DNA of 64,000 bases from Variovorax paradoxus. Lineage in GTDB: Bacteria > Pseudomonadota > Gammaproteobacteria > Burkholderiales > Burkholderiaceae_C. The position numbers were made by a program, and so were the translations under genes. Below, in pieces: positions 2,951-61,964 of the stretch; the stretch's first letter is position 1; the number at the start of each line of letters is the position of its first letter. A model generated the notes under the pieces. That model made no database searches, was not told the DNA's origin, and saw only the letters and a program-made list of their open reading frames with translations. The stretch covers positions 7,434,501 to 7,498,500 of the forward strand of contig NZ_CP091716.1 of NCBI RefSeq assembly GCF_022009635.1, written 5' to 3'.

Positions 2951-2975
2951 GACGGGACGACCGCCCGAATGTTTA
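2951..2975 (-). promoter_or_regulatory. Iron-starvation ECF sigma box before the ABC exporter
   Basis: Read on the minus strand, TAAAC (from 2975) is followed by 16 bases and CGTC (2954-2951). This is identical in spacing to five other boxes in the window and fits the OrbS/PvdS-type pattern TAAA-N17-CGTC known from ornibactin and pyoverdine genes. CGTC ends only 9 bases before the ATG at 2941, so the transcript would be nearly leaderless. Confidence 0.65.
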
Positions 2976-2982
2976 GCAAACG

Positions 2983-3222
2983 CTATTGCAGCGTCGGCTC
3001 CTGCCGGGACTCGTCGCCGGGAGCGGAACCGACCATCGCCGCACCGGCCAGCGCCCAGAGGGTCAACGCCTCGTCGAGCGCGCGCACATGTTTCGCATCG
3101 CGCCCCAGCCACAGGACCAGCTTCTCCGCGCGTTCGAGCGAGGGCGCGTCATGCAGCTCGCGAAAGAGTCGCCAGGCCTCGCTGAAAGCCGGATCGGAAG
3201 GAACCTGGTGTCGGGAGTTCAT
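2983..3222 (-). CDS. Small free-standing DUF4880 (FecR N-terminal-like) protein
   Basis: This 79-residue soluble protein resembles only the N-terminal cytoplasmic segment of FecR anti-sigma factors. The pattern AWRLFRELHDAP, then W-L-G-x-D, then ALDEALTLWALAG matches the W-x-x-(D/R)-x-x-H-x-x-A-x-x-x-x-x-x-LW layout of DUF4880. There is no membrane helix, no FecR domain and no STN-like C-terminus. In FecR proteins this segment contacts the ECF sigma factor, so a sigma-binding regulator is a reasonable inference but unproven. A second such protein lies at 58524-58784. It is preceded by its own box (3261-3285) and followed after 41 bases by the exporter. Confidence 0.6.
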   Translation of the reverse strand: MNSRHQVPSDPAFSEAWRLFRELHDAPSLERAEKLVLWLGRDAKHVRALDEALTLWALAGAAMVGSAPGDESRQEPTLQ

Positions 3223-3260
3223 CGCATTCGGGAGGCCGGACTGCTGTGGATGCGTGGATA

Positions 3261-3285
3261 GACGCGACCTGCCGCCATATGTTTA
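3261..3285 (-). promoter_or_regulatory. Iron-starvation ECF sigma box before the first DUF4880 gene
   Basis: On the minus strand TAAAC begins at 3285 and CGTC occupies 3264-3261, giving TAAA-N17-CGTC. It lies 38 bases before the ATG at 3222 and is divergent from the fhuF box at 3333-3357, so this 150-base region drives transcription both ways. Confidence 0.7.
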
Positions 3286-3332
3286 GCGCATGTCATCCGC
3301 ACGTCGCAATTTCGTGAACTGTTGCGCCGCAC

Positions 3333-3357
3333 TAAACCGCTGGGCGCGCCAACCGTC
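3333..3357 (+). promoter_or_regulatory. Iron-starvation ECF sigma box before fhuF
   Basis: TAAAC at 3333-3337 and CGTC at 3354-3357 are separated by 16 bases. The box argues that the true fhuF start lies downstream (ATG 3400) and not at the in-frame TTG at 3322, which would precede the promoter. Confidence 0.7.
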
Positions 3358-3399
3358 TCCATCAGCGATGAGCATGATTTGCGCGGTCGCGCCCTGTCG

Positions 3400-4152
3400 A
3401 TGATTCCCCTGCTGGCGCCGATCTTCCGGGGCGAGTGGGCCGCTTATGGCGAAGCGCTGGCGTGCGCGCCGCAGCCGCCGGCCGGCGCCGTGCGGGTGGC
3501 CGACCTCGTCACCGACCCGGCGCTGCTTGCCGGCTTGCTGCAGGCGCACGCACGGCACCTGCGGATGCGCAAACCCGACCTGCGCCCGGTGGCATCGGCA
3601 TGGAGCATGGATTACCTGAGTGCTCTGCTGCCACCGGTGGCCGCGGCGGCCAGCCTGCTGCAGCACGTGTTTCCGATGGCGCCGGCACAGGTCTGGCTGA
3701 CCCTGGCCGACGGGGCCGTGCCGCAGCGCTTTCATATTCCGCACGAGGGGCAGGCGCTTGCGGGGGCCGACACCGCGGCGCGCTACGCGGTGCTGCTCCA
3801 CGAGCACCTGGCCCCGCTCTTCGCGCAGCTGACGCGGCTGACGCGAATCGCGCCCAAGATCCTCTGGGGCAACGCGTCGCGCTACCTGGAGCCCGTGCTC
3901 GAACAGGGACTGGCGTTGAGCGGCCATGCCCCCTCCATCGCGAGAGACCTGCAGCATCTGTTGCACCAGCCGCACTGGGGCGGCGACGACAACCCGATGT
4001 TCACCGTGCAGCGCAAGGTCGTGCGGATGCATGCCGGCGCGCCCGAGCCGCTCACGCTGCACCGGCAGTGCTGCCTTTACTACCTGCTGCCCGAGGAAGG
4101 CTATTGCGGCGCGTGCCCGCTGGCGCCGCAATTTCGCAAGACCACCGGCTAA
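3400..4152 (+). CDS. fhuF: Siderophore-iron reductase, FhuF family
   Basis: The 250-residue cytoplasmic protein ends in the FhuF hallmark: Cys-Cys, ten residues, Cys, two residues, Cys (CCLYYLLPEEGYCGAC), which binds a [2Fe-2S] cluster. FhuF proteins reduce hydroxamate-bound Fe(III) to release iron after ferric-siderophore uptake, which fits the hydroxamate ligands predicted here. The rest aligns with the family in general shape (for example HIPHEGQAL and ILWGNASRYLEPVLE). ATG 3400 was chosen because the promoter box at 3333-3357 rules out the longer frame from TTG 3322; TTG 3379 remains possible. The stop codon overlaps the next promoter box (4150-4174). Confidence 0.85.
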   Translation: MIPLLAPIFRGEWAAYGEALACAPQPPAGAVRVADLVTDPALLAGLLQAHARHLRMRKPDLRPVASAWSMDYLSALLPPVAAAASLLQHVFPMAPAQVWLTLADGAVPQRFHIPHEGQALAGADTAARYAVLLHEHLAPLFAQLTRLTRIAPKILWGNASRYLEPVLEQGLALSGHAPSIARDLQHLLHQPHWGGDDNPMFTVQRKVVRMHAGAPEPLTLHRQCCLYYLLPEEGYCGACPLAPQFRKTTG

Positions 4153-4174
4153 ACAAACAGACTTGCCGCGCGTC
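4150..4174 (+). promoter_or_regulatory. Iron-starvation ECF sigma box before the esterase-acetyltransferase gene
   Basis: TAAAC starts at 4150, using the fhuF stop codon as part of the -35 element, and CGTC occupies 4171-4174 after 16 bases. The downstream ATG is at 4218, leaving a leader of about 35-40 bases. Confidence 0.7.
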
Positions 4175-4217
4175 ATTTGCGGATAAGCATCCATTCATCG
4201 GTGCCACTGCGATTCCC

Positions 4218-6302
4218 ATGCCACTGCATCCCGATCTCGAAGCCTTCCTCGAACTGGCCGCCCTCGCCGAAGAAGACGGGCGTCCGCCGATGTGCGACAT
4301 GTCTCCCGCGCAGGCGCGTGCCAGCTATGACCAATCGACCGTGGCGCTGGACGGCGTCGGCCCCGACCTGCCGGTCGAGGACATCGCCTTCCAGGCCCGC
4401 GACGGTGCCACGCTGCACGCGCGGCTGTACCGGGGAGGCGCCACCGCGGCGGCGCTGCCGACCCTGCTGTATTTCCACGGCGGCGGTTACGTCGTCGGCG
4501 GGCTCGATTCGCACGATGCGCTGTGTCGCTCCATCGCGCTGCGCACGCCCTGTGCCGTCCTGGCGGTCGACTACCGGCTGGCGCCGGAGCACAAGTTTCC
4601 GACTGCGTTTCATGACGCCGAGGACGCAGCGGCATGGCTCGCGGCGCACGGCGGCTCGCACGGTCTCGATACCGCGCGCGTGGCCTTCGGCGGCGACAGC
4701 GTCGGCGGCACACTGGCCACGGCGCTGACCCTGGCCGCCCGCGAAGCCGGACGCGCGCAGCCGCTGCTGCAGTTGTTGCTCTATCCCTGCACCAGCATTC
4801 GCCAGGACAGCGCTTCGCACCGGCGTTACGCGAGCGGGCACCTGCTCGAGCAGCGCACGCTGCAGTGGATGTTCGGCCACTACCTGCGCAGCGATCAGGA
4901 CCGCCAGGACTGGCGTTTCGCGCCGCTTGCCGCGCAGGACCTGTCGGGCCTGGCGCCCGCGCACGTCGTGCTGGCGGAATACGACCCGCTGGTGGACGAG
5001 GGCAAGGCCTATGCCGAGCGGCTGCAGGCCGCCGGTGTGCGCACCCGGCTCGACGTGCACGAGGGCATGGTCCACGACTTCGCGCGCCTGAGCCAGGTGG
5101 TGGAAGAGGCCGATGCGCTGCGCACCGCGATCGCGCGGATGCTGGCCGACGCGTTCCAGCGTCCGGCCGTGTCCACGTCGCCGGCCGCCACGGCTTCGAT
5201 CGGCGCGTGGGTGTTCCATGCGCATCCCGACGGCCGTCCGCTCGAAGTGCGGCTCGACGCGGCGAAGCTGAGCGTCGGTCCGCAGGGAAGCAAGGAGGGC
5301 ACGAGCCAATGGGCGCTGCGCAAGCAAGCCGATGCGCTGCGTCTGGAATGGCCGGCAGACCACGGCGCGCAGCCCCCCGAGGAATCGCATCTGCTGGCGG
5401 CCATCGAGGCGGCTTTCGTGCGCCATCCGGAACTTTGCACGCTGTCGCTGGAGGTGCCGCCATCACGCACCGCGTGGCTGGTGGACGTGGGCGCGGCGAG
5501 TGCGGCGTACGGCTCGCAGCCGAGCGTTGTCTCGCGCGAAGCCTTCTGGCAGCTGCCTCGCGTGTGGCAGCGCAACCCGCGCGAGCCCTTCGCACAGCGC
5601 TACACCTTGAGCCAAGGCCGGCGCCATCCGATGCGCCCGGCCAAGCCGGTCGGCACGGTCTATCAGCGCCACATTCCGTGGCTGTCGCAGACGCTGACGC
5701 TCGACACCGTCGACATCGAGCGCGACCTGGCGGCTTTCAACCGCTGGATGAACGACCCGGTGGTGGCCCATTTCTGGGAGGAGCAAGGCGACCTTGCCAG
5801 GCACCGCGCCTACCTCGAGACCATTGCCGCCGATCCGCGCGTCACCGGGCTCGTCGGCCGGCTCGACGGCGAGGCCTTCGGCTACTTCGAGGTTTACTGG
5901 GCCAAGGAGGACCGCATCGCGCCCTTCTACGACGCCGGCGACCACGACCGCGGCTGGCATGCGCTGATCGGCGAGGCGCGCTTTCGCGGCAAGCCGTTCC
6001 TCACGGCATGGATGCCCTCGGTGTCGCACTACCTCTTCCTGGACGACTGCCGCACGCAGCGCATCGTGATCGAGCCGCGCGCGGACAACCACAAGATGAT
6101 CAAGAGCCTGGGCCGCTGCGGCTACGCCCACGTCAAGGAGTTCGACTTTCCGCACAAGCGGGCCATGCTCGGCCTGCTGCTGCGCGAACGCTTCTTCGGC
6201 GAGGCCCTCTGGATTCCCCGCGGGGAACCGACCATTTCGCCAACTTCGGCCAAGGGCGCCGAACTTCCCATCGAGGACACCCAATGCAAATCCATGACCT
6301 GA
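4218..6302 (+). CDS. Alpha/beta-hydrolase (HSL-type esterase) fused to siderophore N-acetyltransferase
   Basis: One uninterrupted frame of 694 residues joins two enzymes. Residues ~1-315 are a hormone-sensitive-lipase type esterase: oxyanion motif HGGGYVVGG (~86), nucleophile GGDSVGG (~158), acid in EYDPLVDEG (~254) and His in MVHDF (~285). Residues ~325-694 are an IucB/AlcB-like GNAT acyltransferase: FNRWMNDPVVAHFWEE (~500), then YWAKEDRIAPFY, HYLFLDD, and EPRADNHKMIKSLGRCGYAH near the end. The second half probably acetylates N5-hydroxyornithine to the hydroxamate; the first may hydrolyse an ester of the siderophore or its acyl chain. It overlaps the ornithine monooxygenase start by 19 bases, so the two should be cotranslated. 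The fusion is unusual; no stop or internal start clearly separates the halves. Confidence 0.85.
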   Translation: MPLHPDLEAFLELAALAEEDGRPPMCDMSPAQARASYDQSTVALDGVGPDLPVEDIAFQARDGATLHARLYRGGATAAALPTLLYFHGGGYVVGGLDSHDALCRSIALRTPCAVLAVDYRLAPEHKFPTAFHDAEDAAAWLAAHGGSHGLDTARVAFGGDSVGGTLATALTLAAREAGRAQPLLQLLLYPCTSIRQDSASHRRYASGHLLEQRTLQWMFGHYLRSDQDRQDWRFAPLAAQDLSGLAPAHVVLAEYDPLVDEGKAYAERLQAAGVRTRLDVHEGMVHDFARLSQVVEEADALRTAIARMLADAFQRPAVSTSPAATASIGAWVFHAHPDGRPLEVRLDAAKLSVGPQGSKEGTSQWALRKQADALRLEWPADHGAQPPEESHLLAAIEAAFVRHPELCTLSLEVPPSRTAWLVDVGAASAAYGSQPSVVSREAFWQLPRVWQRNPREPFAQRYTLSQGRRHPMRPAKPVGTVYQRHIPWLSQTLTLDTVDIERDLAAFNRWMNDPVVAHFWEEQGDLARHRAYLETIAADPRVTGLVGRLDGEAFGYFEVYWAKEDRIAPFYDAGDHDRGWHALIGEARFRGKPFLTAWMPSVSHYLFLDDCRTQRIVIEPRADNHKMIKSLGRCGYAHVKEFDFPHKRAMLGLLLRERFFGEALWIPRGEPTISPTSAKGAELPIEDTQCKSMT

Positions 6303-7600: not shown

Positions 7601-7634
7601 CATTTGACGGGCATGACGCGGCTCGGTGATACAC

Positions 7635-7657
7635 TTAATAAGAATAGTTCTTATTAA
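7635..7657. promoter_or_regulatory. Fur box upstream of the ECF sigma factor gene
   Basis: A 23-base near-perfect palindrome has arms TTAATAAGAA and TTCTTATTAA around a 3-base centre. Centred on 7646, its middle 19 bases agree with the E. coli Fur consensus at 12 positions by my count. It lies about 80 bases before the sigma ATG (7737) and 35 bases after the monooxygenase stop, and presumably gives iron repression of the sigma/FecR/receptor genes. Confidence 0.75.
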
Positions 7658-7736
7658 CCTCCCCCGAGATCACCGACGCGCAGTGCAGCGGCAGGTTTCC
7701 GGGGCTCATCGTCGATGCTTGCGAGAAGGCGACCGG

Positions 7737-8369
7737 ATGCGCGACCTCGTTCAGGAACTGGTAGCTCACTATGCGGACTTGCGCCGGCAGTTGACTCGCG
7801 ACCTGAGGGATCCCCACTACGCGGCCGACATCGCGCAGTCGAGCTTCGAGCGGGTGTTCGCACAGGCCACGAAGTCGCTCGGCGCGGCCCGCGGTACCGG
7901 CGCCGAAGTGGCGGCACCGGATGACGCGAAGGACGCCGGCAGCGGTATCGAATCGCCCCGCGCCCTGCTCTTTCGCGTGGCCCGCAACCTGTGCATCGAC
8001 GATGCGCGCCGCCGCAAGGTGGCGCAGGAATGGGTCGGCACGCATGCCGCCATCGGCACGCACCTCGTGGCGCCGTCCAGCGAATTCATCCTGGCGCAGC
8101 AGCGTGTGCTGGCGCGGGTGGTCGAGACCATGGAAAAACTCCCGCCGCGGCGGCGCCAGGTGTTCCTGCTGTTTCGCGCCTACGGCCACACGCGCGCGGA
8201 GATCGCGCAGCAGTTGGACATCACCGAGATGGCCGTGGCCAAGCACCTGCTGCGCGCCACCATCGATTGCTCGCGGGTGTTCGCCGAGCTGCGCGCCGAG
8301 CTGATCGAGCCGCAGCACGTGCAGAACCACGCCGGCTTCGATACTGCGCTGGCCGAAGACTTCTCGTGA
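7737..8369 (+). CDS. ECF sigma factor, FecI type (cell-surface signalling)
   Basis: The 210-residue protein has sigma region 2 (LTRDLRDPHYAADIAQSSFERVF, then FRVARNLCIDDARRRK) and region 4 (LPPRRRQVFLLFRAYGHTR, then EIAQQLDITEMAVAKHL). Between them lies an Ala/Gly/Asp-rich insert at residues ~45-70. ATG 7737 was preferred over upstream starts because of the purine-rich GAGAAGG shortly before it and because the upstream frame runs through the Fur box. The next gene, a FecR homologue, overlaps or follows within a few bases, and a TonB-dependent transducer follows that: the standard Fec/Fpv signalling trio. It should direct transcription of the receptor when the ferric siderophore binds outside. 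Confidence 0.88.
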   Translation: MRDLVQELVAHYADLRRQLTRDLRDPHYAADIAQSSFERVFAQATKSLGAARGTGAEVAAPDDAKDAGSGIESPRALLFRVARNLCIDDARRRKVAQEWVGTHAAIGTHLVAPSSEFILAQQRVLARVVETMEKLPPRRRQVFLLFRAYGHTRAEIAQQLDITEMAVAKHLLRATIDCSRVFAELRAELIEPQHVQNHAGFDTALAEDFS

Positions 8370-8377
8370 GCGGCAGC

Positions 8378-9445
8378 ATGGCAATGAGCGCTCCGCGCGA
8401 ACGGCTGATCGAGCGCGCGCTCGCGCTGATCGTCGAGGGCGAGATCGCGCCGGGCGAGGCCGCGCAGCACGCCCGCATGGCCATGAATCAATGGCGCAGC
8501 AGATCGCCCGAGCATGCGGCGGCGCTGCTGGAGGCGCGCCATCGCTGGGACGCGCTCGGTGGCATGGCCGGCGACCTGCGCGCGCACTTCGACGATCCGG
8601 CAGCCGGCATGGCCGCCGCGGCGGCGACCGAGTCCGGCCGGCGGTCGCAGCGCCGCAAGATGCTGCTCTCCATTGCGGGGCTGCTGGGCGGCGGCCTCGT
8701 CGCGGGCCGCGGCATGCAGTGGTATTGGCAACAGCCGGTTTTTCATGCGGCCTACAACACCCGCACCGCGCAGATGCTGAAGGTGTCGCTCGCGGATGGC
8801 GCCGGCGACGCGCCGGGCAGCCAGCTCGACATCGCACCGCAAAGCGCCATCGATGTCACGCTGTATCGGCAGCGCCGCGTCGTCGAGATGGCACGCGGCG
8901 AAGTGCGCTTCGAGGTGGCGCATGATGCGCGGCGCCCTTTCCAGGTCCGCACGCGCGGTGCCGTCATCGAGGTGGTCGGCACGGTCTTCACCGTGCGCGA
9001 CCGTGGCGGACCCATCACCGTGGGGGTGGAACAGGGGCATGTCCGCGTGCAGGTTCGCGCCCGGCAAGACGGTGGAGCGCCCTACGCGAACGCCACGGAA
9101 GTCATCGACCTGCGCAGGGGCGAACTAATTGAAGTGCGGGACGGCCACGCCGATGCGGTGCGGCAATCAGACACCAGGGCCCTCTCGGCATGGCGCGACG
9201 GCTGGCTGGTGTTCGACAACACACCGCTGGGCGAGGCGCTGGCGGTGGTCAACAGCTACCGCGCCAGCCCGATCGTCGGCGCCAATGCGCGCATCGACGC
9301 CCTGCGCCTCTCGGGCCGCTTCCGCAGCAACGACTCGGTGGCGCTGGTGGCGCTGCTGCCGACGATCCTGCCGGTGACCGCCGTCTCCCGGCCGGATGGC
9401 AGCGTGGAACTGCAGGCCTGGCCGCATGGCGGCACCGCCTTTTGA
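8378..9445 (+). CDS. FecR-type anti-sigma factor / signal transducer
   Basis: This is a full-length (355-residue) FecR protein. It has an N-terminal DUF4880 segment (ERALALIVEGEIAPGEAAQHA through ARHRWDALGG), one membrane helix at about residues 93-112 (LLSIAGLLGGGLVAG), and a periplasmic FecR domain (VVEMARGEVRFEVAHDARRPF, then VIEVVGTVFTVR). A C-terminal STN-like tail (VFDNTPLGEALAVVNSY) contacts the receptor's signalling domain. ATG 8378 was chosen; GTG 8366, overlapping the sigma stop as GTGA, and ATG 8384 are also possible. It holds or activates the upstream sigma factor in response to the receptor at 9572-11962, and gives an internal comparison for the two solo DUF4880 proteins. Confidence 0.88.
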   Translation: MAMSAPRERLIERALALIVEGEIAPGEAAQHARMAMNQWRSRSPEHAAALLEARHRWDALGGMAGDLRAHFDDPAAGMAAAAATESGRRSQRRKMLLSIAGLLGGGLVAGRGMQWYWQQPVFHAAYNTRTAQMLKVSLADGAGDAPGSQLDIAPQSAIDVTLYRQRRVVEMARGEVRFEVAHDARRPFQVRTRGAVIEVVGTVFTVRDRGGPITVGVEQGHVRVQVRARQDGGAPYANATEVIDLRRGELIEVRDGHADAVRQSDTRALSAWRDGWLVFDNTPLGEALAVVNSYRASPIVGANARIDALRLSGRFRSNDSVALVALLPTILPVTAVSRPDGSVELQAWPHGGTAF

Positions 9446-9571
9446 ACAGGCTGTCTCTGTTTGGCGAGTTCAAACGTCTTACTTTGAGAAGCGGCAAGGC
9501 TCCGATTTTTCGGGGGGCCTCCGCCCAAAAGTACGAATACGTCGCATTTACCTGACCTGGAGCCCTGACCC

Positions 9572-11962
9572 ATGCGTTCTTCGCCTCGCCACCGCCTTCT
9601 GAGCGCCGCGCTTGCCGCTGCCTTTGGAACCACCTTTGTCAGCTGGAGCAACCTTGCTTCGGCGCAGGCGTCCACACAGGCGGCCGTGCCTACCTTCGAA
9701 ATCAGCGTGCCGGCACAGCCGTTGGCGGCGGCGTTGAACGAACTTTCCCGGCAGACCGGCATCCAGGTGCTGGCCTCCGGCGATCTGGTTTCACGCGTCA
9801 GCGCGCCGGCCGTCTCCGGGCGACTGACGCTGCAACAGGCACTGGACCGCCTGCTGGCCGGCAGCGGCCTGAGCGCCGCGCGCGAAGGCGGCGCGGTGGT
9901 CATCCGCGCCGCAAGCAGCGCCGATTCCGGCAAGACGCTGCCGCAAGTCCTGGTCACGGACTCGCTCGAATCCGACTCGGCCGCCTCGCTGCAGAAGGAC
10001 GGCACGGCCGCCGACGGCTACCGTGCCAAGACCGTGTCCTCGGTCGGCGCATTCGGCAGCATGAGCCTGCAGGACACCCCGTTCTCGATGAGCGTGGTTC
10101 CCCGCGAGTTGATCCAGAACATCCAGGCTCAATCGCCCGACGACATCTACAAGCTCAATCCGTCCACCCGTACCTCCACGCCGCAGGTCACGAGCTGGAG
10201 CCCGCTCGTGAGCATCCGCGGCTTCGAGGGCTCGAACATCGCCGAAGACGGCATGCGCCGCATCTACAACCACGCAGCCGTGCTCGAAGACAAGGAGCGC
10301 GTCGAGATCCTGAACGGTCTGTCGGGCTTCCTCTATGGCGCTGCGTCGCCGGGGGGCATGATCAACTACGTCTACAAGCGCCCGACCATCGAGCGCCTCA
10401 ACAGCGTCACGGTCGGCAACTACGGCGGGAGCCAGGGCTATGTTCACGGGGACTTCGGCGGCCGCTTCGACGAAGCCGGCCGCGCCGGCTACCGGCTGAA
10501 CGTGGTCAAGCAGGAGGGCGGCACCGCCGTCGACGACCAGACGATCAACCGCACGCTGGTCAGCGCCGCCGTCGACTGGCAGGTGACCGACAAGCTGCTG
10601 CTCGAATTCAACGCGGTCTACAACAAATACCAGACCTCCGGCACCTCCGCCTACTGGTTCTTCGACGGCGTGCCGCACGGCCGTGCCCCCGACGCCAAGA
10701 AGAACTGGAGCCAGCCGTGGGTGCGCGACGAGTTCGAAAACACCAAGCTGATGGGCAAGGCGACGTACCGGCTCAGCGACAACGTCACGCTGCGCGCGGC
10801 CTACATGCGCGACAACATCGACCGCCCGGTGCAGGACCACACGATGAACAGCGTGGCCTCGACCGACGGTTTCAGCCAGATCCGCATCCGCTCGGGCCGC
10901 ACCAAGGACACCTTCGACGCCGGCTCCGCCCTGGCCGACGTCACCTTCAACACCGGCCCGGTCGCGCACAAGCTCACTCTCGGCTACTACATGTACTCCG
11001 ACAAGTCGTGGGGCACGCTCAGCAGCCCCAACACCGGCTGGCAAGGCCCCTACCCCTTCAATGCGCCGACCTACGTGCCCGAGCCGTACTTCCCGCCCAA
11101 CCTGTACGCGCCCTACTACTCGGGCCGCGTGGTCAACTCCAACTACGTCATCGGCGACAACATCCAGTTCAACGACCAGTGGTCGCTGCTCGTGGGCCTC
11201 AACCACAGCACCATCCGCACGGAGTCGCTGACCTCCACCGGCGAGCGTTCGCAGCCCGACTACGACAAGAGCCGCAACTCGCCCTCGGTCTCGCTGATGT
11301 ACAAGCCCGTGCCCTGGCTGACCGCCTACGCCAGCTATATCGAGGGCCTGGAACAGGGCGGCATCGCACCAGACACCGCGTCCAACTACGGCGCCATCCT
11401 CGCCCCGATGGTGAGCAAGCAGAAGGAAATCGGCATCAAGGCCACCGTGGGCAACATGCTGCTGACCACCGCGTTGTTCGACATCGAGAAGGCCTATGAA
11501 TTCACCGACAGCAACAACGTCTACACGCAAAACGGCCGCCAGAACCACAAGGGGATCGAGTTCAACGCTTCCGGCAAGCTCTCCGACAAGTGGACCGTGG
11601 TCGGCGGCGTCACCGCGCTCGACGCCAAGGTGAAGGGTTCCGACTTCAACGGCAACGCGCCGATGAACGTGGCGAAGGTCGTGGCGAAGGTTTACTCCGA
11701 GTACGAGCTCCCCGTGCCCGGCCTGAGCCTGACCGGCGGCATCTACTACACCGGCAAACAGTGGGCCAACGCGGCCAACACCGACCGCCTGCCGGGCGTG
11801 ACCACCGCCGACATCGGCATGCGTTACGCCACCAAGGTCGGGGGAAAGCCACTGACCCTGCGCCTGAATGTGGCAAACGTGACCAACAAGAGCTATTGGC
11901 TCAACAGCTACTACGTAGGTTCGCCGCGCAGCGTGGCGTTCTCGGCGCAAGTGCAGTTCTGA
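9572..11962 (+). CDS. TonB-dependent ferric-siderophore receptor with signalling domain (FpvA/FecA-like)
   Basis: This 796-residue outer-membrane protein begins with a signal peptide (~1-32, ending near SAQA). A secretin/TonB N-terminal (STN) domain follows at ~45-115 (FEISVPAQPLAAALNELSRQ), characteristic of receptors that signal to FecR. The plug lies at ~150-270 (QDTPFSMSVVPRELIQ, LVSIRGFEG, FLYGAASPGGMINYVYKRP), followed by a 22-strand barrel ending in the expected terminal Phe (AFSAQVQF). The product should import the siderophore made by the cluster. The 126-base gap after the FecR gene shows no TAAAC-N16-CGTC box, so this gene probably depends on the upstream FecI-type sigma factor. A hairpin at 12038-12066 ends the transcription unit. 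Confidence 0.93.
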   Translation: MRSSPRHRLLSAALAAAFGTTFVSWSNLASAQASTQAAVPTFEISVPAQPLAAALNELSRQTGIQVLASGDLVSRVSAPAVSGRLTLQQALDRLLAGSGLSAAREGGAVVIRAASSADSGKTLPQVLVTDSLESDSAASLQKDGTAADGYRAKTVSSVGAFGSMSLQDTPFSMSVVPRELIQNIQAQSPDDIYKLNPSTRTSTPQVTSWSPLVSIRGFEGSNIAEDGMRRIYNHAAVLEDKERVEILNGLSGFLYGAASPGGMINYVYKRPTIERLNSVTVGNYGGSQGYVHGDFGGRFDEAGRAGYRLNVVKQEGGTAVDDQTINRTLVSAAVDWQVTDKLLLEFNAVYNKYQTSGTSAYWFFDGVPHGRAPDAKKNWSQPWVRDEFENTKLMGKATYRLSDNVTLRAAYMRDNIDRPVQDHTMNSVASTDGFSQIRIRSGRTKDTFDAGSALADVTFNTGPVAHKLTLGYYMYSDKSWGTLSSPNTGWQGPYPFNAPTYVPEPYFPPNLYAPYYSGRVVNSNYVIGDNIQFNDQWSLLVGLNHSTIRTESLTSTGERSQPDYDKSRNSPSVSLMYKPVPWLTAYASYIEGLEQGGIAPDTASNYGAILAPMVSKQKEIGIKATVGNMLLTTALFDIEKAYEFTDSNNVYTQNGRQNHKGIEFNASGKLSDKWTVVGGVTALDAKVKGSDFNGNAPMNVAKVVAKVYSEYELPVPGLSLTGGIYYTGKQWANAANTDRLPGVTTADIGMRYATKVGGKPLTLRLNVANVTNKSYWLNSYYVGSPRSVAFSAQVQF

Positions 11963-12037
11963 CGACGAGCATGCGCTGCCAGGCCGTCGCCGCCTGAGCC
12001 GCGCGGCTCTCTTCTCCGGCTTTCCCTCCAGACTCGT

Positions 12038-12066
12038 TTGCGCCCTCCCTGCACGGGAGGGCGCAA
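12038..12066. terminator. Intrinsic terminator hairpin between convergent genes
   Basis: A perfect 12-base stem (TTGCGCCCTCCC pairing with GGGAGGGCGCAA) closes a 5-base loop, followed on the plus strand by TTT. It lies between the receptor stop (11962) and the NRPS stop (12072), which converge, so it probably serves both directions. Confidence 0.8.
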
Positions 12067-12071
12067 TTTCG

Positions 12072-30523
<18,452 letters not shown>

Positions 30524-33500: not shown

Positions 33501-33826
33501 CCGGCGCGAAACACCGTGCGCAGCGATTCATGGCGCGCTAGCAGCGCCTGGAAGGCGGCCCTGAGCGCTTCGATGTCCAGCGCGCCCCTCAGTCGCAGTC
33601 CTTCCGCAATGTGATACGCGGTGCTGTCGGGGTCCAGCTTCCAGAGGAACCATTGCCGGCGTTGGGCGAAGGACAGCGCAGCGCGGGCGGCCGGGTCGGC
33701 GCTGCGGACCAGGGCCGGCTCCCGGTCTTCGGACGCCGCGGTTCCTTTCAGGCGGCTCGCCAGCAGTGCTTGTTGCGCCGGCGTGAGGCGGGCGCGTTGA
33801 ACGGACAGTTTTTCGGATGTGGACAT
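30524..33826 (-). CDS. NRPS module C-A(Gly)-T
   Basis: This single-module synthetase of 1100 residues has C ~45-490 (active site HHIVSDGWS), A ~520-1000 and T ~1010-1075 ([10 protein letters not shown]). The A-domain code reads DILQLGMIWK, the glycine type. It receives the chain from the second PKS and passes it to the large NRPS that starts at its stop codon (TGATG). The A domain is almost identical in DNA to that of module 4 in the large NRPS, so the specificity should be the same. It starts 84 bases after the PKS stop, the largest gap among the megasynthase genes apart from the FAAL gene boundary. I see no promoter box in that gap. Confidence 0.9.
30852..31933. repeat. Copy 2 of the 1.08-kb Gly A-domain repeat
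   Basis: Partner of 16483-17564, in the same orientation, about 14.4 kb away. The flanking C and T domains of the two modules are clearly different in sequence, so the homogenised block is essentially the A domain alone. Confidence 0.9.
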
Positions 33827-33910
33827 GGGGTGAAGAAAAGTCGGTCTGCGCGGTGCGCGCGGTCCACGCGGTGGACTTCACCCTTGATGACGTATCCGGT
33901 GCCGCTTTGT

Positions 33911-36900
33911 TCAGGCCACCCTTTCCACCTGCCCTGCAACCCCGGCCTGCTCGATCTGCTCGATCACGTGCAGCTCCACCAGCGCGGCCAGCGCGGCCAC
34001 CGTCGGCTCGTTGAAGAGCGCCGCCGGATGCAGCGCCACGCCGAATTTCTTGCGCACCCGGCCCAGCAGCTGGATGGCCGTGAGCGAATCGCCGCCCAGC
34101 TCGAAAAGGCTGTCGTTCACGCCGATGGACGAAAAGCCCAGTGCCTCGCACCATGTCTGCGCGATGTCGGCTTCCAGCTCGGTTTCGGGCGGTGCGAAAG
34201 GCGTTGCCAGCGTGGGCCGTTCGTGGCTCCCCCCGACCACGCCGCGCATTGCTTCCGCAGGCGATTCCACCTCGAAATCGAGTGACGTCAGGCGCGCGCG
34301 CTTTTCCTCGACGCTCAGCGGCGAGACAAAAAGCTGCGGCGCGACCTCGCCGCAGAGCACACGCTCGAAGGCCCGCGCGCCCATGTCGGGGGAGATGCCG
34401 ACGCCTTCCGGATGGTCGCGGTGCGCCGCCATGCCGACCTCGCGCCAGGTGTCCCAGTTGACCGACCAGACGGGAAAGCGCTGCTCCCGCAAGGCCAGCC
34501 GCGCCGTGGCATCGAGGTAACAGTTGGCCGAACAGTAGTCCGCGTCGCCGAAAGCACCGAACGCGGCGGCGGTGGACGAGCAGAACAGCACGAAGTCGGG
34601 CGCGTGCCCGGCCAGTGCTGCCATCAGCGCGCGTGTTCCCTGCACCTTGGGCTTGCACACGGCATCTGCATCCGCGCGCTCGCGCTGCGCCATGACGCCG
34701 CCACCCGGCAGGCCGGCCGCGTGAATCACGCCGTGGAGATTGCCGAACTTCGCGACAGCCTCGCGCACGACCTCCTGCATGCGCCGGGCGTCGGCCACGT
34801 CGGCCTGCAGCACCAGCACCTCGGCGCCGGCCTGAGACAACTGCGTCAGCTTCTGCAGGCGCTCCCTCTGCGCGGGGGCGGTCGACGGATCGGCGATGGC
34901 CTCGCCCCACAGGTGGCGCGCCGGTATCTCCGAACGCCCCACGAGCACCAGCCGGGCCTGCCATTCACGGGCCAGGTGGCCCGCCAGCGCGAGGCCGATG
35001 CCACCCAGGCCGCCGGTGATCAGGTAAACGCCCTGCTTCCTCAGCCGCCGGCCCTGATGGCCATCGCCGCCCGGCGCCGGCTCGAACACCTGCTGCCATC
35101 GGTGCGGCCCCCGATAGGCCGCCAGCGCGGACGGTTCGGCGGCACGGGACTCGGCCAGCACCTGCCCGGCCAGCCGGGCGAGTGCCGCGTCATCGTTCAC
35201 GGGCACGGCCACGTCGATCAGCTGGCAGGCAATGTCCGGGAATTCCTGCGGCAGCACCTTGCAAGGGCCGTGCAGCATCGCCTTGCCGGGGTGCAGGCTT
35301 TCCAGGCCGGTCACGTCCTCGAGCTGGCTGGCGACCACCGTCACGCGCAGTCGCGCGCCGTGGCTGGCAACGCCCTCGCCATACAACGCCTGCGCCAGTG
35401 CGAGCATGCTGTGGAAGCCACGCGCCAGCACGGGCTCCAGCGGGCCGTGCGCATCGTGCGCTTCCAGGCTCCAGAGGTGATAGACCTGACGCAGGGGGCC
35501 GTGCGCCGAGCCGGCTTCTCGCAGCACACGCGCCAGGTCTTCGCGCGCATCGGTGCGCGCACGATAGTGCTGCGCATCTGCAACCTCGAAGGCCGATGCG
35601 CTCTCCACCACGACGACAGGCCGGGGCGAAACAGCCAGCTTCTGCAAGAGGGCCGCACGGAAGTCGCCCGCGTCGCCGAGCACGAGGCAATAGCCGGCTT
35701 CGGCAATTTCCACCGCCGCCTGTGACAACGGCTGCGCGCGCCGCCATGCGGGGACGTGGAACCAGTCCGCGAGCTCACGCTGCGCGGGCCGGCTCTGCGC
35801 TCGCGCGCTCGCCACGGGCGCGGTCTGGCCCGGCGCGACCCAATAGGAACGGCTTTCGAACGGATAGGTCGGCAGCGGGACATGCCGCCGCGACGCGCCC
35901 CCGTGGTACGCCTGCCAGTCGACCGGTACGCCCGCCACCCACATCTGCGCCAGCGCACGGGCGCACTGCGCATCGCCCTGCCGCCATTGCTGCGGACGGG
36001 TCTGTGAAGCCACGATGCAAGCGGCCGAGGCCGCGTCGACATGACGCCGTGCCAGCGACACCAGCACTTCGCCCGGCCCGGCCTCGACCAGCACGCGCCC
36101 CGGCGTGCGCAGCAACTCGCCAAGGCCATCGGCAAAGCGCACGGTGCCGCGCAGATGGCGTACCCAGTACTGCGCGCTGGTAGCCTCCGCGTCGGTGATC
36201 GGTCGGCCCGTGACGTTGGAAATGAACGGAATCGAGGGCGCATTCCTGCGCACGCCCTCGACGAGCGCCTCGAAGGCCGGCAGCACCGGCTCCACCATGG
36301 CCGAATGGAAAGCATGCGACACATGCAGCCTGCGCGCCACGGTGCCGCGTGCGGTCAGTTCGCGCTCCACGGCTGCAATGGCTTCGGGCGTGCCGGACAG
36401 CACGCACAGCCTGTCGTCGTTGACGGCCGCAAGGCTGCAGTCCGATGAGAGCCACGGCTGCAACTCGGCCTCCGACATGGCGACGGCCATCATCTCGCCG
36501 CGTGGCAGGCTCTGCATCAGGCGTCCGCGCGCGGCGATGAGGGTCAGCGCATCCTCCAGCCCGAACACACCCGCGATGCACGCGGCCACGTACTCGCCGA
36601 CGCTGTGCCCGAGCATGACGGCCGGCTGCACGCCCCAGTGCATCCACAGCCGCGCCATCGCGTATTCGACGACGAAGAGCGCCGGCTGCGTGATGGCGGT
36701 CTGCGAGAGCTTTTCCGTGGCGGCCACCTGATCGGTTTCCGAAGGAAACAGGCATTGCCGCAGGTCCAGCCCGAGCACGGGCTGCAGCACGCGGCAGCAC
36801 TGGTCGATCACATCGCGGAACAGCGGCTCGCTCTCGTAGAGCATGCGCCCCATGTGAAGGTGTTGCGCGCCCTGTCCCGGGAACAGGAAGGCGACTTGTG

Positions 36901-41783: not shown

Positions 41784-41787
<4 letters not shown>

Positions 41788-44870: not shown

Positions 44871-51948
<7,078 letters not shown>

Positions 51949-51949
<1 letters not shown>

Positions 51950-57270: not shown

Positions 57271-57324
57271 ATCGGTTCCTTGATTTGGCGGGCCGGCGCG
57301 GCGGCCGGCCCCGGCGGCGGCAGC

Positions 57325-58065: not shown

Positions 58066-58069
58066 TCGC

Positions 58070-58318
58070 TCAGGCGGCGGCCGGCGCGCTCTTGCTGCTT
58101 TCTTGCTGCGCCATCCAGTCGCGCAGCGATTTGGGGCGCATGTCGGTCCAGTTTTTCTCTACATAGTCGAGCACGGTCTTCTTGTCGCCCTGAATGCCGT
58201 CGACGGCCTTCCAGCCGCCGGGCACGGCCTTCCATTGCGGCCAGATCGAATATTGCTCTTCGTGGTTGACGAGAACGATGAAGGTCTCGTCCTCGCGGTC
58301 GAAGCTGCTGGTAGACAT
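58070..58318 (-). CDS. mbtH: MbtH-like NRPS accessory protein
   Basis: This 82-residue protein has the conserved tryptophan/proline pattern of MbtH proteins: [10 protein letters not shown], then [10 protein letters not shown], then [13 protein letters not shown]. MbtH proteins bind A domains and are needed for their folding or activity. ATG 58318 was preferred to the upstream in-frame start at 58375 because AAGAGGA sits just before it and the upstream residues are not part of the family. It is the first gene after the promoter box at 58393-58417 and therefore probably heads the biosynthetic operon. Confidence 0.93.
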
Positions 58319-58392
58319 GTGCGGTCCTCTTGGGGTTGTTGAGACGACAGGCAAGGAGGCTTTGCACACCCCCAATTGCCTTTGCGATACAT

Positions 58393-58417
58393 GACGGGGC
58401 GGGAGGCCGGGTGTTTA
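58393..58417 (-). promoter_or_regulatory. Iron-starvation ECF sigma box driving the mbtH-NRPS/PKS operon
   Basis: On the minus strand TAAAC starts at 58417 and CGTC lies at 58396-58393, separated by 16 bases. It is 75 bases upstream of mbtH. It probably drives the 46-kb run of thioesterase, NRPS and PKS genes, since I see no other such box before 12072. Confidence 0.75.
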
Positions 58418-58523
58418 GGGTCGTCAACACCATTGCGCCGCGGCATGAGCGGGCGCGGCTGCGCCGCGGCGTGGCCGCGGGAGATCGGACGGGAACGGGA
58501 GGTGCGGAGGCCGGCGGCCGCGG

Positions 58524-58784
58524 CTAGCGACCGGCGATGGGATCCGGGGCGTCGTCCGGCGGGGGGACGTCGTTGGCGGGCGGAACGAGGCCCACGAGCA
58601 GCCACAGACGAGCCGCTTCGTCATAGGCCTTGCGATGAAGAGGATCCGCGGCGAGCCACTGCATGAACTCGTCGTCGCGCGCCGCATCGTCGAGGCTGCC
58701 GCGCTGCGCGTGCTGGTGGCGCACCCAGGTCCATGCGGCCTGCCAGACCGGGTCTTGATCCTTGTCCTTTGTCATCGGCGCCAT
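58524..58784 (-). CDS. Second small free-standing DUF4880 (FecR N-terminal-like) protein
   Basis: This 86-residue protein has AAWTWVRHQHAQ, then FMQWLAADPLHRKAYDEAARLWLLVG, a close match to the FecR N-terminal DUF4880 segment. It ends in a Pro/Asp-rich tail (PPPDDAPDPIAG) with no membrane helix or periplasmic domain. It begins 25 bases after the stop of the PvdS-like sigma factor, so the pair is presumably cotranscribed. In FecR the matching segment binds sigma, which suggests a cytoplasmic modulator of this sigma factor; that is inference. In-frame ATGs at 58784 and 58775 are both plausible. Compare with the solo homologue at 2983-3222. Confidence 0.65.
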   Translation of the reverse strand: MAPMTKDKDQDPVWQAAWTWVRHQHAQRGSLDDAARDDEFMQWLAADPLHRKAYDEAARLWLLVGLVPPANDVPPPDDAPDPIAGR

Positions 58785-58809
58785 CGTATCGCCGATGCGC
58801 GATGCGGGG

Positions 58810-59340
58810 TCAGCCGCCCTGCACCAGGTAGCGGCAGCTTTCGAGGGCCGCGTCGGCGTCCTTGATCATGAAGTTCACCAGCGTGGCGGAGCAGCCGAGC
58901 CGCACACCGATCTCGCGCTGCGTCATGCCGCTCAGCCGGTTGAGCTCGAAGGCCGTGCGGGTGCGCGCGGGCAGCGCGTCGAGCACGCGGTCGATCGCGG
59001 CCAGCGCCTGGCGCCCGTCCAGCACGCGCTCGGGTGCATCGTTGCTCGGCGGACTGACAAGCTCCACGTCCTCGCAGTAGGTGCGGTAGCTGGCTTCGAC
59101 GGAATGATGGCGGTGATAGTCGAAGGCCACGTTGCGCACCACCTGACAGCAGTAGCCGAGCGGCTTGCGCACGTCGCGCACGGCGGCGCCGTCGGCCAGC
59201 TTGAGGTAGGCGTCCTGCAGCACTTCATCGGCCAGGTCTGCGGTGCGGACGATCTTTTGCGCGACGCGCTGGAGCTGGGGACGGTTTGCGATGAAGACCT
59301 CCCCCAACGTGGGCTCGGCTGGCTGCAGCGACATGTCCAT
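58810..59340 (-). CDS. Iron-starvation ECF sigma factor, PvdS/OrbS-like
   Basis: The 176-residue sigma factor has region 2 (QKIVRTADLADEVLQDAYLKL, then CCQVVRNVAFDYHRHH) and region 4 (LPARTRTAFELNRLSGMTQREI, then GVRLGCSATLVNFMIKDA). The sequence style and the siderophore context resemble PvdS and OrbS rather than FecI. ATG 59340 follows AGGAG by five bases; the longer start at 59361 precedes that site and was rejected. A Fur box lies at 59372-59390. It is the best candidate to recognise the six TAAAC-N16-CGTC boxes in the window. Downstream is a DUF4880 protein instead of a full FecR. Confidence 0.88.
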   Translation of the reverse strand: MDMSLQPAEPTLGEVFIANRPQLQRVAQKIVRTADLADEVLQDAYLKLADGAAVRDVRKPLGYCCQVVRNVAFDYHRHHSVEASYRTYCEDVELVSPPSNDAPERVLDGRQALAAIDRVLDALPARTRTAFELNRLSGMTQREIGVRLGCSATLVNFMIKDADAALESCRYLVQGG

Positions 59341-59371
59341 GGGTACTCCTGAAGTGTTCACTGGAGATAAT

Positions 59372-59390
59372 GCAAATGAGAACTATTACT
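59372..59390. promoter_or_regulatory. Fur box upstream of the PvdS/OrbS-like sigma gene
   Basis: The 19 bases starting GCAAATGAGAA and ending TATTACT match the Fur consensus at 12 positions by my count. They lie about 30-50 bases before the sigma ATG at 59340 in a locally AT-rich stretch. Iron-bound Fur would repress the sigma factor and, through it, the biosynthetic regulon. Confidence 0.65.
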
Positions 59391-59514
59391 ATTTTTTGAC
59401 AGAAAAAGACCTGGATTGCCCAGTTGCTCCTCCTCTGTCTCTTACCCTAAAGACGTTTGAACAGCCGAAAGCGAGACAGGGTGCCGCCGATGGCGAGCGT
59501 CGCCGCGCACCGCT

Positions 59515-59712
59515 TCAGGGACGCACCGTCACCCGCCGCAGCTGCGGATCGCGTGCTATGTCTTCCTCGCGAAACGGGAAGCGCAGCCAGTCCTTGCGCG
59601 CATAGCGCGCCACCGGGCCCAGTCCGCTGCCGCCGGTCACCGCGGTTTCACGTTCGCCGTGCGCGAGCAGCGTGCGCGCCTGCACGCCGCGCCGGTCGAA
59701 GTACACACCTGG
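59515..59712 (-). pseudogene. Out-of-frame C-terminal tail of the PvdQ-like acylase
   Basis: From about 59712 the expected acylase C-terminus continues in another frame: VYFDRRGVQARTLLAHGERE, later YARKDWLRFPFREEDI, ending at 59515. Inserting one G in the run that now reads CAGGTGTGTAC on the coding strand would join TYLQV to VYFDRR and restore about 65 residues typical of the family end. The present sequence therefore carries a one-base deletion, or a sequencing error. Confidence 0.7.
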
Positions 59713-61910
59713 AGGTAGGTGTTGCCATGGGAGCGGTCGTCCATGGTGTAGTCGCCGTCGTTGGCGCACGCGACCGTGAAATAGCCTTCGGCATCGCAGC
59801 CGCCGAAGAGAGGCAACTTTCGTCCCTCGCTGCGGGCAAAACGCTGCTGGCCCAGCGGCATATCCAGCGCCCAGCCCTTGCGCGCCATGTCTTCGACAGC
59901 GCCGGCCAGCGCGAAGGCCACACGCGGGTCCGACGCATGAATCGCCGATGGCGTCCGCAACGGCGCCGACGCCGAGAACGGCTGCGCATAGAGGTCCTTG
60001 GCCGGGATCTTCTGCACCCGGGTCCAGAAGGCATCCCAGAGCAGCGCGCCCCGGTCGTTTGCATCCGCGCGGTCGGGCCAGCGTCGCAACACTTCGCAGG
60101 CCCGCCGGATGTCGACCTGATCTTTCGCACAGGCGCCGTCGAGCAGCGCCACCTTGAACCGGTCCGCCGTCGAAGCACGCGCCTCGAGGGTCTTTTGCAT
60201 GACACGGTCCGCCAACGCCTTGGCGGAGGTCGCGCCGGCATTGGCGAGCTCATGTGCGATGCGGTGTCCTTCCTGTCCACGCATCGACAGCGGCTGGCCT
60301 TCCCCTCCGAGGATCGACGCGAATCCCGTCAACGGCTGTTCCGGGTTCGTGAGCCAGTAGCTGTCGTTCATGTTGGCGACGTAGTCCTCGCGCAGCAGGC
60401 CGGGCATGCGGTCGGCGGCCATGGTGCCGGGCTGCGCCACGTTCTTCGCGGACTGCCATTCGCAAGTCGACCGGCTGCCATCGAGCACCGGCATGGCGGG
60501 GTCGAGCGCGGCGAGCGCCTTCGACAGCGGCGTCGCACAGGCCGAGCGCAGTTCGTCCCCGACACCGGGCACCGCGCCGATGTCGGCGTACCAGGCCCGG
60601 CCGTCGCCGCGCCCGATGGCCGCCGTGTTGACCCAGGGCATGGCGGTCTCCTCTCGCTGGATGGCCATGAACTCGTCGAGCGAACGCGCCTGGTCCCAGC
60701 GGAAGAAGTTGCGAAAAATGCGCGGGTTGTCGGCATTGATGTCGCGTATCGCCAGCGCCTTGTGCGCACTCCATGCCAACGCGGGATTGCGGGCTCCCAG
60801 ATCGACCACCGGCCCGAAGCGCGTGCGATAGAGCGTGCGGCGCACCAGATCCACCGAGCCGTCGGGCCGACGCACCGCCACGGCGAGCGGCTGCGCCTGC
60901 ATGGGTTCCGATCGGCCGTCGACCAAGTAGCGCGTGGGGTCGGCCGGGTCCAGCGCCAGGTCGAACAGTCCGAAGCGTCGCGCGGCGGAGACGGTGTGGC
61001 TCCAGGCCACGTCGTTGTTGAAGCCGATCATGATGACCGGAATGCCGAGAAAGGACACGCCCGCCGCGTCGAGCTTGCCCGGCAGCGTGAGGTGCGCCTG
61101 ATAGAAGCGGTCGGGCCCGCCCCAGTACCAGTGCGGATTGCCGAACAGCACGCCGCCGCGTTCGCCGGTGGCCGCCTGGCCGAATGCGAGCACGTTGCTG
61201 CCGATGCCGCGCGCATCGCCCACCGGAATGTCGAGCCGCGAAGACAGCGAGAGCTTGTCTGCTGGCACGGGCGGCGTGAGAGCCGCGGGCTTGGCGTTCA
61301 CGATCTCGGAGACGAAGCGCGTGTACCCGCCGGCCAGCCCTGCGGCGATCATGCGGCGGTAGATGTCTTCCGGCCCGATGGCGCGCACCCACGGCGCGCC
61401 GGCACACGCGTGCGCCGACACGCCGCGCACGGGCTTGCGCGCCTGCAGCGTCCGCAGATGGCGGTTGTAGCCTTCCGCGTAGCCGGCGATGAGTTCGTTG
61501 AGGTCGGCCGGTTGCTCGCGCTTCAGGGCCTCGACTGCTTCGGGACCTGCGAACGCCCTGAAGAAGAAATCCAGGTCGAGATTGACGGGCTCGCCGAAGG
61601 TCGAGCGTGTCCGAGGCTTTCCCTCGGCGCCGAAGTACAGCGAGCGTTGCCCGCTGTAGGTGACGAAGGCATCGGCCAGCGTGCACAACGCATCCTCGGC
61701 CTGCGCCTGGCCGTAGCCGATGCCCAGCCCGCGCCAGCTGCCAGCGCGAACGTGCGGAATGCCGTCGGCGGTGCGCCTGATCTCGATGGCAGTGGTTGGC
61801 GCGTCGCCGCGAGCCGATGCCGGGGTGGCACCGAAGACGGCACAGGAAATGGCAAAAGCGGCCATGCGCAGGCCCCGCGCAGGCGCACGGAAGAAGGAGA
61901 GATTGTTCAC
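59637..61910 (-). CDS. PvdQ-like penicillin-acylase family amidohydrolase, frameshifted near its C-terminus
   Basis: The 757-residue frame encodes a periplasmic Ntn-hydrolase with a signal peptide (~1-34, FAISCAVFGATPASA), an alpha chain, and the autoprocessing site GIGSN with nucleophile Ser near residue 238. SHTVS and NDSYWLTN are family active-site regions. In Pseudomonas, PvdQ cleaves the fatty acyl chain from the pyoverdine precursor; here it could trim the FAAL-loaded lipid. The gene has its own iron-starvation box (61940-61964), linking it to the siderophore regulon. The last ~19 residues (CTSTGAACRRARCSRT onward) are not family-like because the frame shifts near 59705, and the true tail lies in another frame down to 59515. 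Activity is uncertain. Confidence 0.8.
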   Translation of the reverse strand: MNNLSFFRAPARGLRMAAFAISCAVFGATPASARGDAPTTAIEIRRTADGIPHVRAGSWRGLGIGYGQAQAEDALCTLADAFVTYSGQRSLYFGAEGKPRTRSTFGEPVNLDLDFFFRAFAGPEAVEALKREQPADLNELIAGYAEGYNRHLRTLQARKPVRGVSAHACAGAPWVRAIGPEDIYRRMIAAGLAGGYTRFVSEIVNAKPAALTPPVPADKLSLSSRLDIPVGDARGIGSNVLAFGQAATGERGGVLFGNPHWYWGGPDRFYQAHLTLPGKLDAAGVSFLGIPVIMIGFNNDVAWSHTVSAARRFGLFDLALDPADPTRYLVDGRSEPMQAQPLAVAVRRPDGSVDLVRRTLYRTRFGPVVDLGARNPALAWSAHKALAIRDINADNPRIFRNFFRWDQARSLDEFMAIQREETAMPWVNTAAIGRGDGRAWYADIGAVPGVGDELRSACATPLSKALAALDPAMPVLDGSRSTCEWQSAKNVAQPGTMAADRMPGLLREDYVANMNDSYWLTNPEQPLTGFASILGGEGQPLSMRGQEGHRIAHELANAGATSAKALADRVMQKTLEARASTADRFKVALLDGACAKDQVDIRRACEVLRRWPDRADANDRGALLWDAFWTRVQKIPAKDLYAQPFSASAPLRTPSAIHASDPRVAFALAGAVEDMARKGWALDMPLGQQRFARSEGRKLPLFGGCDAEGYFTVACANDGDYTMDDRSHGNTYLQVCTSTGAACRRARCSRTANVKPR

Positions 61911-61939
61911 GTCGTCGTTCGCTGATGGCTCGAATCACA

Positions 61940-61964
61940 GACGGTTCGGCGAGCCCGACGTTTA
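61940..61964 (-). promoter_or_regulatory. Iron-starvation ECF sigma box before the acylase gene
   Basis: On the minus strand TAAAC starts at 61964 and CGTC is at 61943-61940, with 16 bases between. It lies 30 bases before the acylase ATG (61910) and after the stop of the SRPBCC gene, giving the acylase its own promoter. Confidence 0.7.

Follow-up and report, generated by a model that had tools for sequence, protein, structure and literature searches.

In the pyoverdine system of Pseudomonas aeruginosa (FpvA–FpvR–FpvI/PvdS), cell-surface signalling acts on two extracytoplasmic function (ECF) σ factors, one for the receptor and one for biosynthesis, and the excerpted account has a single anti-σ factor, FpvR, holding FpvI and PvdS in parallel, its cytoplasmic piece FpvR1-89 alone inhibiting both (PMC4256889). 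For the wider σ network of this species, one study reports a direct impact of one σ factor on another only for AlgU on rpoH, with indirect links for RpoH/algU and FpvI/fecI2 (PMC4362757). OrbS and MbaS of Burkholderia, which serve ornibactin and malleobactin, are described with TAAA-N17-CGTC promoters, a σ gene beside mbtH, and Fur control (PMC4786211, PMC8908255, PMC9023288); OrbS has no adjacent anti-σ gene, a receptor without a signalling domain, and a C-terminal four-cysteine iron sensor (PMC9023288). In Sinorhizobium fredii, a FecI-type σ factor is described as controlling the petrobactin receptor and biosynthesis genes together, acting directly on one operon (PMC8822346). Modules of an ECF σ gene with a DUF4880 protein have been named in Stutzerimonas and Halomonas, and the Halomonas listing places the module in a siderophore cluster that also has an MbtH-like protein (PMC13037486, PMC10291192); the excerpts name these modules without further analysis and describe no promoter or relay. 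Here we analyze a siderophore cluster of the soil bacterium Variovorax paradoxus in a 64,000-nucleotide stretch of DNA (GCF_022009635.1, contig NZ_CP091716.1, positions 7,434,501 to 7,498,500; hereafter the window), which contains two kinds of predicted promoter, box 1 (TAAAC-N16-CGTC) and box 2 (TGTCTCNNTT-N12-ACGTCT), and two ECF σ factors, one of the FecI type and one, here called the biosynthesis σ, resembling PvdS and OrbS.

This cluster shares features with each of these systems and differs from each. As with pyoverdine, surface signalling is combined with two ECF σ factors, but the predicted promoter of the receptor σ also stands before the gene of the second σ, which has a small DUF4880 neighbor. 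Unlike OrbS, the biosynthesis σ has an adjacent DUF4880 gene, shares its cluster with a FecI/FecR/STN system, and lacks the cysteine cluster; and unlike the arrangement in S. fredii, a second σ factor is predicted to stand between FecI and biosynthesis. We consider it probable that FecI transcribes the receptor and biosynthesis σ genes via box 2, and that the biosynthesis σ then transcribes the biosynthesis genes via box 1, the two forming a relay. Among the literature matches listed, which did not include the original variochelin paper, titles and abstracts contained no relay from FecI to a second σ factor and nothing on the regulation of this cluster in Variovorax. Thus, the relay wiring, the box 2 pair, and the decay series described below were not found in print among those matches, although pairs of ECF σ factors and DUF4880 proteins have already been named.

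Box 2 at the receptor and σ genes

The gene set for FecI/FecR cell-surface signalling is complete in the window, its members adjoining each other: a FecI-type ECF σ factor (7737..8369, + strand; orthologue searches used 7734-8369), a full-length FecR-type anti-σ factor (8384..9445, +; FecR domain E 2e-19), the membrane segment of which was recognized by reading the sequence only, and a TonB-dependent siderophore receptor with an STN signalling domain (9572..11962, +). The original prediction had held that the receptor operon lacks box 1, and this was borne out; the operon has its own FecI, FecR, and STN receptor. Box 2, by contrast, has exactly two matches in the genome, both predicted FecI promoters, one before the receptor gene (9452..9479, +) and one before the biosynthesis σ gene (59451..59478, −). 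The shorter pattern TGTCTC-N17-CGTC had nine genome matches, seven of which do not fit the longer box 2 pattern.

Across 101 Variovorax genomes, box 2 had 71 matches, distributed over 37 genomes, and the reversed pattern had none. Orthologues of the cluster FecI (E <1e-70, with the next matches at ~1e-16) were present in 36 of the 101 genomes, and box 2 occurred in all 36 of these compared to 1 of the 65 without FecI. Position was equally consistent. Specifically, box 2 started 92-264 nt upstream of the biosynthesis σ gene in 35/35 loci with both σ and FecI, and no copy was found within 400 nt upstream of this gene in the 18 genomes that have the σ without FecI; upstream of the receptor gene, it was present in 18 of the 19 FecI-containing receptor loci that were read and in none of five loci lacking FecI. 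One genome, G056 (L135), encodes FecI, FecR, and an STN receptor, with no orthologue of the biosynthesis σ, and carries a single box 2, at the receptor gene; it is possibly an uptake-only strain. Since box 2 is present with FecI, all but absent without it, and retained in G056, it tracks FecI and not the biosynthesis σ. From this co-occurrence, we predict that FecI drives the receptor promoter when ferric siderophore is sensed. The lone genome with box 2 and no FecI, G098 (L161), is a fragmented assembly, in which box 2 lies ~1.4 kb rather than ~140 nt upstream of the σ gene, as though something had been inserted between them.

These distributions bear on which protein, if any polymerase subunit, reads box 2. 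The biosynthesis σ might do so, by itself or alongside FecI, thereby activating its own gene and that of the receptor; the −10 CGTC is common to both box types, and one copy of box 2 stands at the σ gene's own promoter region. However, 17 clade II-B genomes have the σ and box 1 with no box 2, and G056 presents the converse, so that we regard this possibility as improbable. Alternatively, box 2 could be an operator for some other regulator. The invariance of its ends over 35 distinct copies is no proof of a promoter because the search pattern fixed those ends, but the distance between them suits −35 and −10 elements, the CGTC of box 1 recurs in box 2, and box 2 tracks the gene of a σ factor, all of which make an operator a very unlikely reading.

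The original prediction had divided biosynthesis and uptake between the two ECF σ factors in parallel, and this part of it is not supported. In such an arrangement, Fur alone would control the biosynthesis σ, FecI would serve only the receptor, and the copy of box 2 before the σ gene would be unused. Fur-like sites are indeed present at both σ genes: a Fur-box-like palindrome precedes fecI (7637..7655, no strand assigned; 12/19 matches to the Fur consensus), AATAAGAATARTTCTTATT was the best Fur match in 28 of 30 fecI loci, and a Fur-box-like site separates box 2 from the biosynthesis σ gene (59372..59390, no strand assigned). A Fur-like core was found upstream of the latter gene in 49 of 53 loci, using a core expression written after the sequences had been viewed, and the Fur 19-mer score of these upstream regions was weakly above that of shuffles (11.8 vs. 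10.3). Because this score separates poorly from shuffles, we put Fur control no higher than likely. A parallel arrangement would also suit class II-B and genus g120, in which the σ gene has no box 2, and recalls OrbS, which the excerpted sources describe as Fur controlled and without an anti-σ factor (PMC9023288, PMC8908255). Nevertheless, the 35 FecI-containing Variovorax loci with box 2 before the σ gene span three σ clades, the box was not found within 400 nt upstream of this gene in the 18 genomes without FecI, and outside Variovorax it recurs before the σ gene, exactly in two genera and as a variant in one more. Given that receptor and σ genes share box 2 and that box 2 tracks FecI, circuits in series are likelier than parallel ones, and a parallel split appears unlikely.

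The evidence from other genera comes from 344 further genomes of the family. Exact box 2 was found in three of these, and the reversed pattern in two. G341 (Rhodoferax OV413) and G317 carry box 2 before both the σ and receptor genes, each pair on different contigs; the single copy in the third genome, G339, was counted as chance, as none of the cluster genes are nearby. FecI matched at E <1e-30 in five genomes, G341, G317, G425, G219, and G380. In G425, a form of box 2 without TT precedes the σ gene and a one-mismatch form precedes the receptor gene. The receptor gene of G219, the only one seen for G219 and G380, has a three-mismatch form upstream. Nine further genomes outside Variovorax encode the σ (E <1e-25) without such a FecI, and box 2 with up to one mismatch was absent within 500 nt upstream of the σ gene in the ten outside loci lacking FecI; one of these FecI-lacking genomes, G113, has a two-mismatch form.

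Box 1 and the biosynthesis σ factor

Box 1 occurs six times in the window, in exact form and at the coordinates and strands originally given for it: before the genes for a cyclic-peptide-type ABC exporter (2951..2975, −), the small DUF4880-like protein dufB (3261..3285, −), FhuF (3333..3357, +; a TAAAT variant in G006 and G046), and an esterase-acetyltransferase (4150..4174, +), before the operon of mbtH and nonribosomal peptide synthetase (NRPS) genes (58393..58417, −), and before the gene for a PvdQ-like acylase (61940..61964, −; also in G048). When the window was shuffled 100 times, box 1 appeared 0.05 times on average and at most once in any shuffle. A scan of the entire genome (7,953,676 bases), which the original prediction had proposed, yielded eight matches, of which six lie in the siderophore cluster (six of eight within 59 kb, binomial p ~5e-12) and two overlap coding sequence. 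A chance origin was rejected on the basis of the shuffles and the scan. The reversed pattern gave 23 matches genome-wide and, being built of different words, was not used as a null. Nor is box 1 a common word of the genus: the mean was 6.3 copies per genome in the 10 genomes with a clade-I σ compared to 2.8 in the 91 without one, and 38 of the 57 TAAAC boxes of the clade-I genomes (n = 8, leaving out the fragmentary G098 and G099) fall within the cluster. The six boxes thus likely mark one siderophore regulon with promoters of the PvdS/OrbS type, as had been proposed; in the excerpted source, the OrbS consensus TAAA-N17-CGTC has the same spacing (PMC4786211), and the fifth base in box 1 is C, not A/T.

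The candidate reader of box 1 is the ECF σ factor encoded at 58810..59340 (−), which contains Sigma70_r2 and r4_2 domains. Its best NCBIfam match was NF005448, at 148.7 bits and under the cut-off of 190, and its comparison with the iron-starvation σ factors PvdS and OrbS (ECF09/ECF243) is by description only. The OrbS-type cluster Cys-X2-Cys-X3-Cys-X5-Cys is absent, the C-terminal part having only C150 and C169. The ECF09 pattern described in PMC8908255, a σ gene beside mbtH with no anti-σ gene adjoining, does not hold here: mbtH is close by, yet the σ gene has a DUF4880 gene next to it. Orthologues (at least 52% identity, the following matches being no stronger than E 5e-18) were present in 53 of the 101 Variovorax genomes, 10 at 83% identity or above, designated clade I, and 43 at 52-62%. 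In 52 of these 53 loci, the interval between the σ gene and mbtH carries a box, TAAAC in nine clade I loci and TGAAC in all 43 sister-clade loci; in the remaining genome, G098, mbtH was not found on the σ contig. Spacing and the −10 element are constant across clades, while one base of the −35 element varies. Because this −35 variant follows the σ clade, the σ at 58810-59340 most likely reads box 1, in line with its original nomination.

The −35 variant also correlates with residues in the predicted recognition helix. Among σ factors with a known box (12 TAAAC and 49 TGAAC), T153 together with F157 was found in 11/11 readable TAAAC σ factors (eight of clade I, G341, Achromobacter sp. Root83, and G113) and in 0/49 TGAAC σ factors; G282 was left out of the residue count, its region 4.2 being unreadable in the extraction. 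Positions 58, 89, and 108, which lie outside the recognition helix, likewise separate the two groups, and the σ tree, from which the apparently frameshifted G048 was left out, requires two changes of box 1 state. The association of T153/F157 with TAAAC and TGAAC is a correlation only. Loci of Pseudomonas and Salinicola were tried as a test of this switch and dropped, as their σ factors are distant (29-34% identity) and neither form of box 1 is nearby.

Signalling components, DUF4880 proteins, and the proposed relay

The signalling components are not equally preserved among Variovorax genomes. FecR is full length in all 14 clade I and clade III loci read and ends at 70-71 residues, leaving the DUF4880 part alone, in all 16 class II-A loci read (G047 and G077 were excluded from these length counts). 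Among the receptors scanned, the three whose genomes encode full FecR have STN (the window, G035, and the receptor-only G056), and the eight others do not (class II-A 0/4, class II-B 0/4). Despite its cut FecR and STN-less receptor, class II-A keeps FecI and both copies of box 2. In class II-B (17 genomes), FecI and box 2 are gone, the σ and box 1 are kept, and the Fur-like core is still upstream of the σ gene in 15 of 17. G038 and G040 show the opposite state to class II-B, with box 2 92-93 nt upstream of the σ gene and no Fur-like core. Because full signalling is present in clades I and III, we infer that these stages run toward loss of signalling, that is, decay and not gain. In loci L118-L121 and L102-L117, FecR has shrunk to a DUF4880 protein of 70-72 residues adjoining FecI, and such shrunken FecR proteins are a possible source of standalone DUF4880 proteins.

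Two small proteins of this kind are encoded in the cluster. dufA (58524..58775, −) is an 83-residue standalone DUF4880 protein and a predicted soluble σ regulator, whose gene adjoins the σ gene in 51 of 53 Variovorax loci; Pfam DUF4880 matched all 26 dufA sequences given. Its AlphaFold2 model has three helices and a predicted local distance difference test (pLDDT) score of 70, and the top two Protein Data Bank (PDB) matches in a fold search with this model were structures of the PupR anti-σ domain, 5cos and 5cam (target template modeling scores 0.80 and 0.82; E 1.1). Sequence comparison with a dufA profile gave no relative in the PDB and nothing clear against the FecR of the window, so that the fold search was the only one to point to PupR. 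dufA is predicted to fold like the cytoplasmic anti-σ domain of PupR and may bind the biosynthesis σ. The second protein, dufB (2983..3222, −; 79 residues), is DUF4880-like and belongs to the box 1 regulon. It had no Pfam hit itself, but 7 of 11 homologues given matched DUF4880 at E up to 1, and the dufB and dufA profiles matched with a probability of 97.2 (alignment A1 leaves out dufA L181; alignment A2 leaves out dufB L119, L124, and L126). In the excerpted literature, isolated domains of this kind are inhibitors of PvdS and FpvI and stimulators of FecI, FoxI, and FiuI (PMC4256889, PMC9249621). With PvdS as the closer counterpart in function, we favor by analogy that dufA restrains the biosynthesis σ; that it helps the σ is less likely.

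The proposed relay would operate as follows. With iron plentiful, Fur would repress fecI and the biosynthesis σ gene, and low iron would release both. A small amount of siderophore would be made in starvation. Its ferric form, bound by the STN receptor, would end inhibition by FecR, and the freed FecI would fire box 2, such that receptor and biosynthesis σ rise together. The σ would then fire box 1, driving expression of the mbtH-NRPS operon and of the genes for the exporter, FhuF, the esterase-acetyltransferase, the acylase, and dufB, while soluble dufA, and perhaps dufB too, would bind the σ and restrain it or, less likely, help it. What the sequences themselves show is the two box sets, their concentration in the cluster, and that box 2 goes with FecI and the box 1 variant with the σ clade. 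For the combined picture, in which a sensing σ transcribes a second σ that makes the very siderophore sensed, with a free-standing anti-σ brake, stages of decay, and a T153/F157-TAAAC/TGAAC switch, we judge the chances slightly better than even.

Several points weigh against this proposal or parts of it. The relay is predicted here from sequence. FecI absence among σ-containing Variovorax amounts to one clade on the σ tree (support 99/96) plus the fragmentary G098, so the contrast of 35/35 with 0/18 reflects few evolutionary events, and a Fisher p value overstates it. G051 has no exact box 2 upstream of its receptor gene. Outside Variovorax, G219 and G380, both of genus g120, have FecI and the σ with no box 2 before the σ gene, and the circuits in this genus may be parallel. 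Since both boxes hold the −10 CGTC, cross-recognition is possible, and as the Fur-like site sits between box 2 and the start of the σ gene, this interval may contain a further promoter. Searches for dufA did not find it in G038, in G040, or in several genomes outside Variovorax, and it therefore cannot be essential everywhere. Finally, one of the two changes of box 1 state hangs on G380, whose σ has A153 and T157, unlike other TGAAC σ factors.

If the relay is correct, siderophore output depends on proof, delivered through the receptor, that the siderophore returns iron, and control passes through two σ factors in succession, in contrast to the branched circuit of pyoverdine. Where species have lost parts, they would then be natural mutants in which the decay of surface signalling to plain Fur control and the shift of σ −35 specificity by a few residues become testable. 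Box 2 would furthermore be a DNA handle by which a receptor could be connected with its biosynthesis cluster, in Variovorax as well as in some relatives.

Cluster genes and further box 1 matches

The exporter gene (1262..2941, −) encodes a cyclic peptide export ABC transporter (TIGR01194, 654.6 bits). Its box 1 ends only 9 nt upstream of ATG 2941, so the transcript would be nearly leaderless if the start codon is right; the box also precedes the exporter in all seven clade-I relatives for which this region was read, and in G341. The open reading frame (ORF) of fhuF, which encodes a siderophore-iron reductase (TIGR03951, 123.1 bits), has TTG 3322 as its first codon, ahead of its own box 1. With an alternative start at ATG 3400 (giving 3400..4152, +), the box would stand 42 nt upstream, in agreement with the point at which the matches of most relatives begin (residues 21-27 of the ORF). 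The esterase-acetyltransferase fusion (4218..6302, +) had matches under curated cut-offs. The MbtH-like protein (58070..58318, −; PF03621) is the product of the first gene of the NRPS operon, and the PvdQ-like acylase (59637..61910, −; PF01804) matched NF051460 at 490.8 bits, under the cut-off of 950.

The order σ, DUF4880, TAAAC box, mbtH, thioesterase recurs at the locus of Achromobacter sp. Root83 (L197), in a more distant genus, which suggests transfer of the cluster. In G048 (C2:47776-48304, L056), the σ gene matched as two overlapping pieces in different frames and looks frameshifted, its boxes being kept.

Of the two copies of box 1 outside the cluster, one covers the opening codons of a methyltransferase-like ORF and also lies 25 nt upstream of the ATG of a divergent SDR-like ORF, toward which a promoter may face. 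Near-identical versions of this copy occur in genomes without a clade-I σ (for example, G008, G009, and G023), which fits coding conservation. The other copy lies within a histidine-kinase-like ORF. Allowing one mismatch, the window contains six further matches to box 1. One of these, at 33889-33913 (−), has the sister-clade form TGAAC-N16-CGTC and lies in the gap before an NRPS gene, 62 nt upstream of its ATG at 33826 and overlapping the stop codon of the preceding NRPS ORF; it is possibly a seventh promoter, or a chance match.

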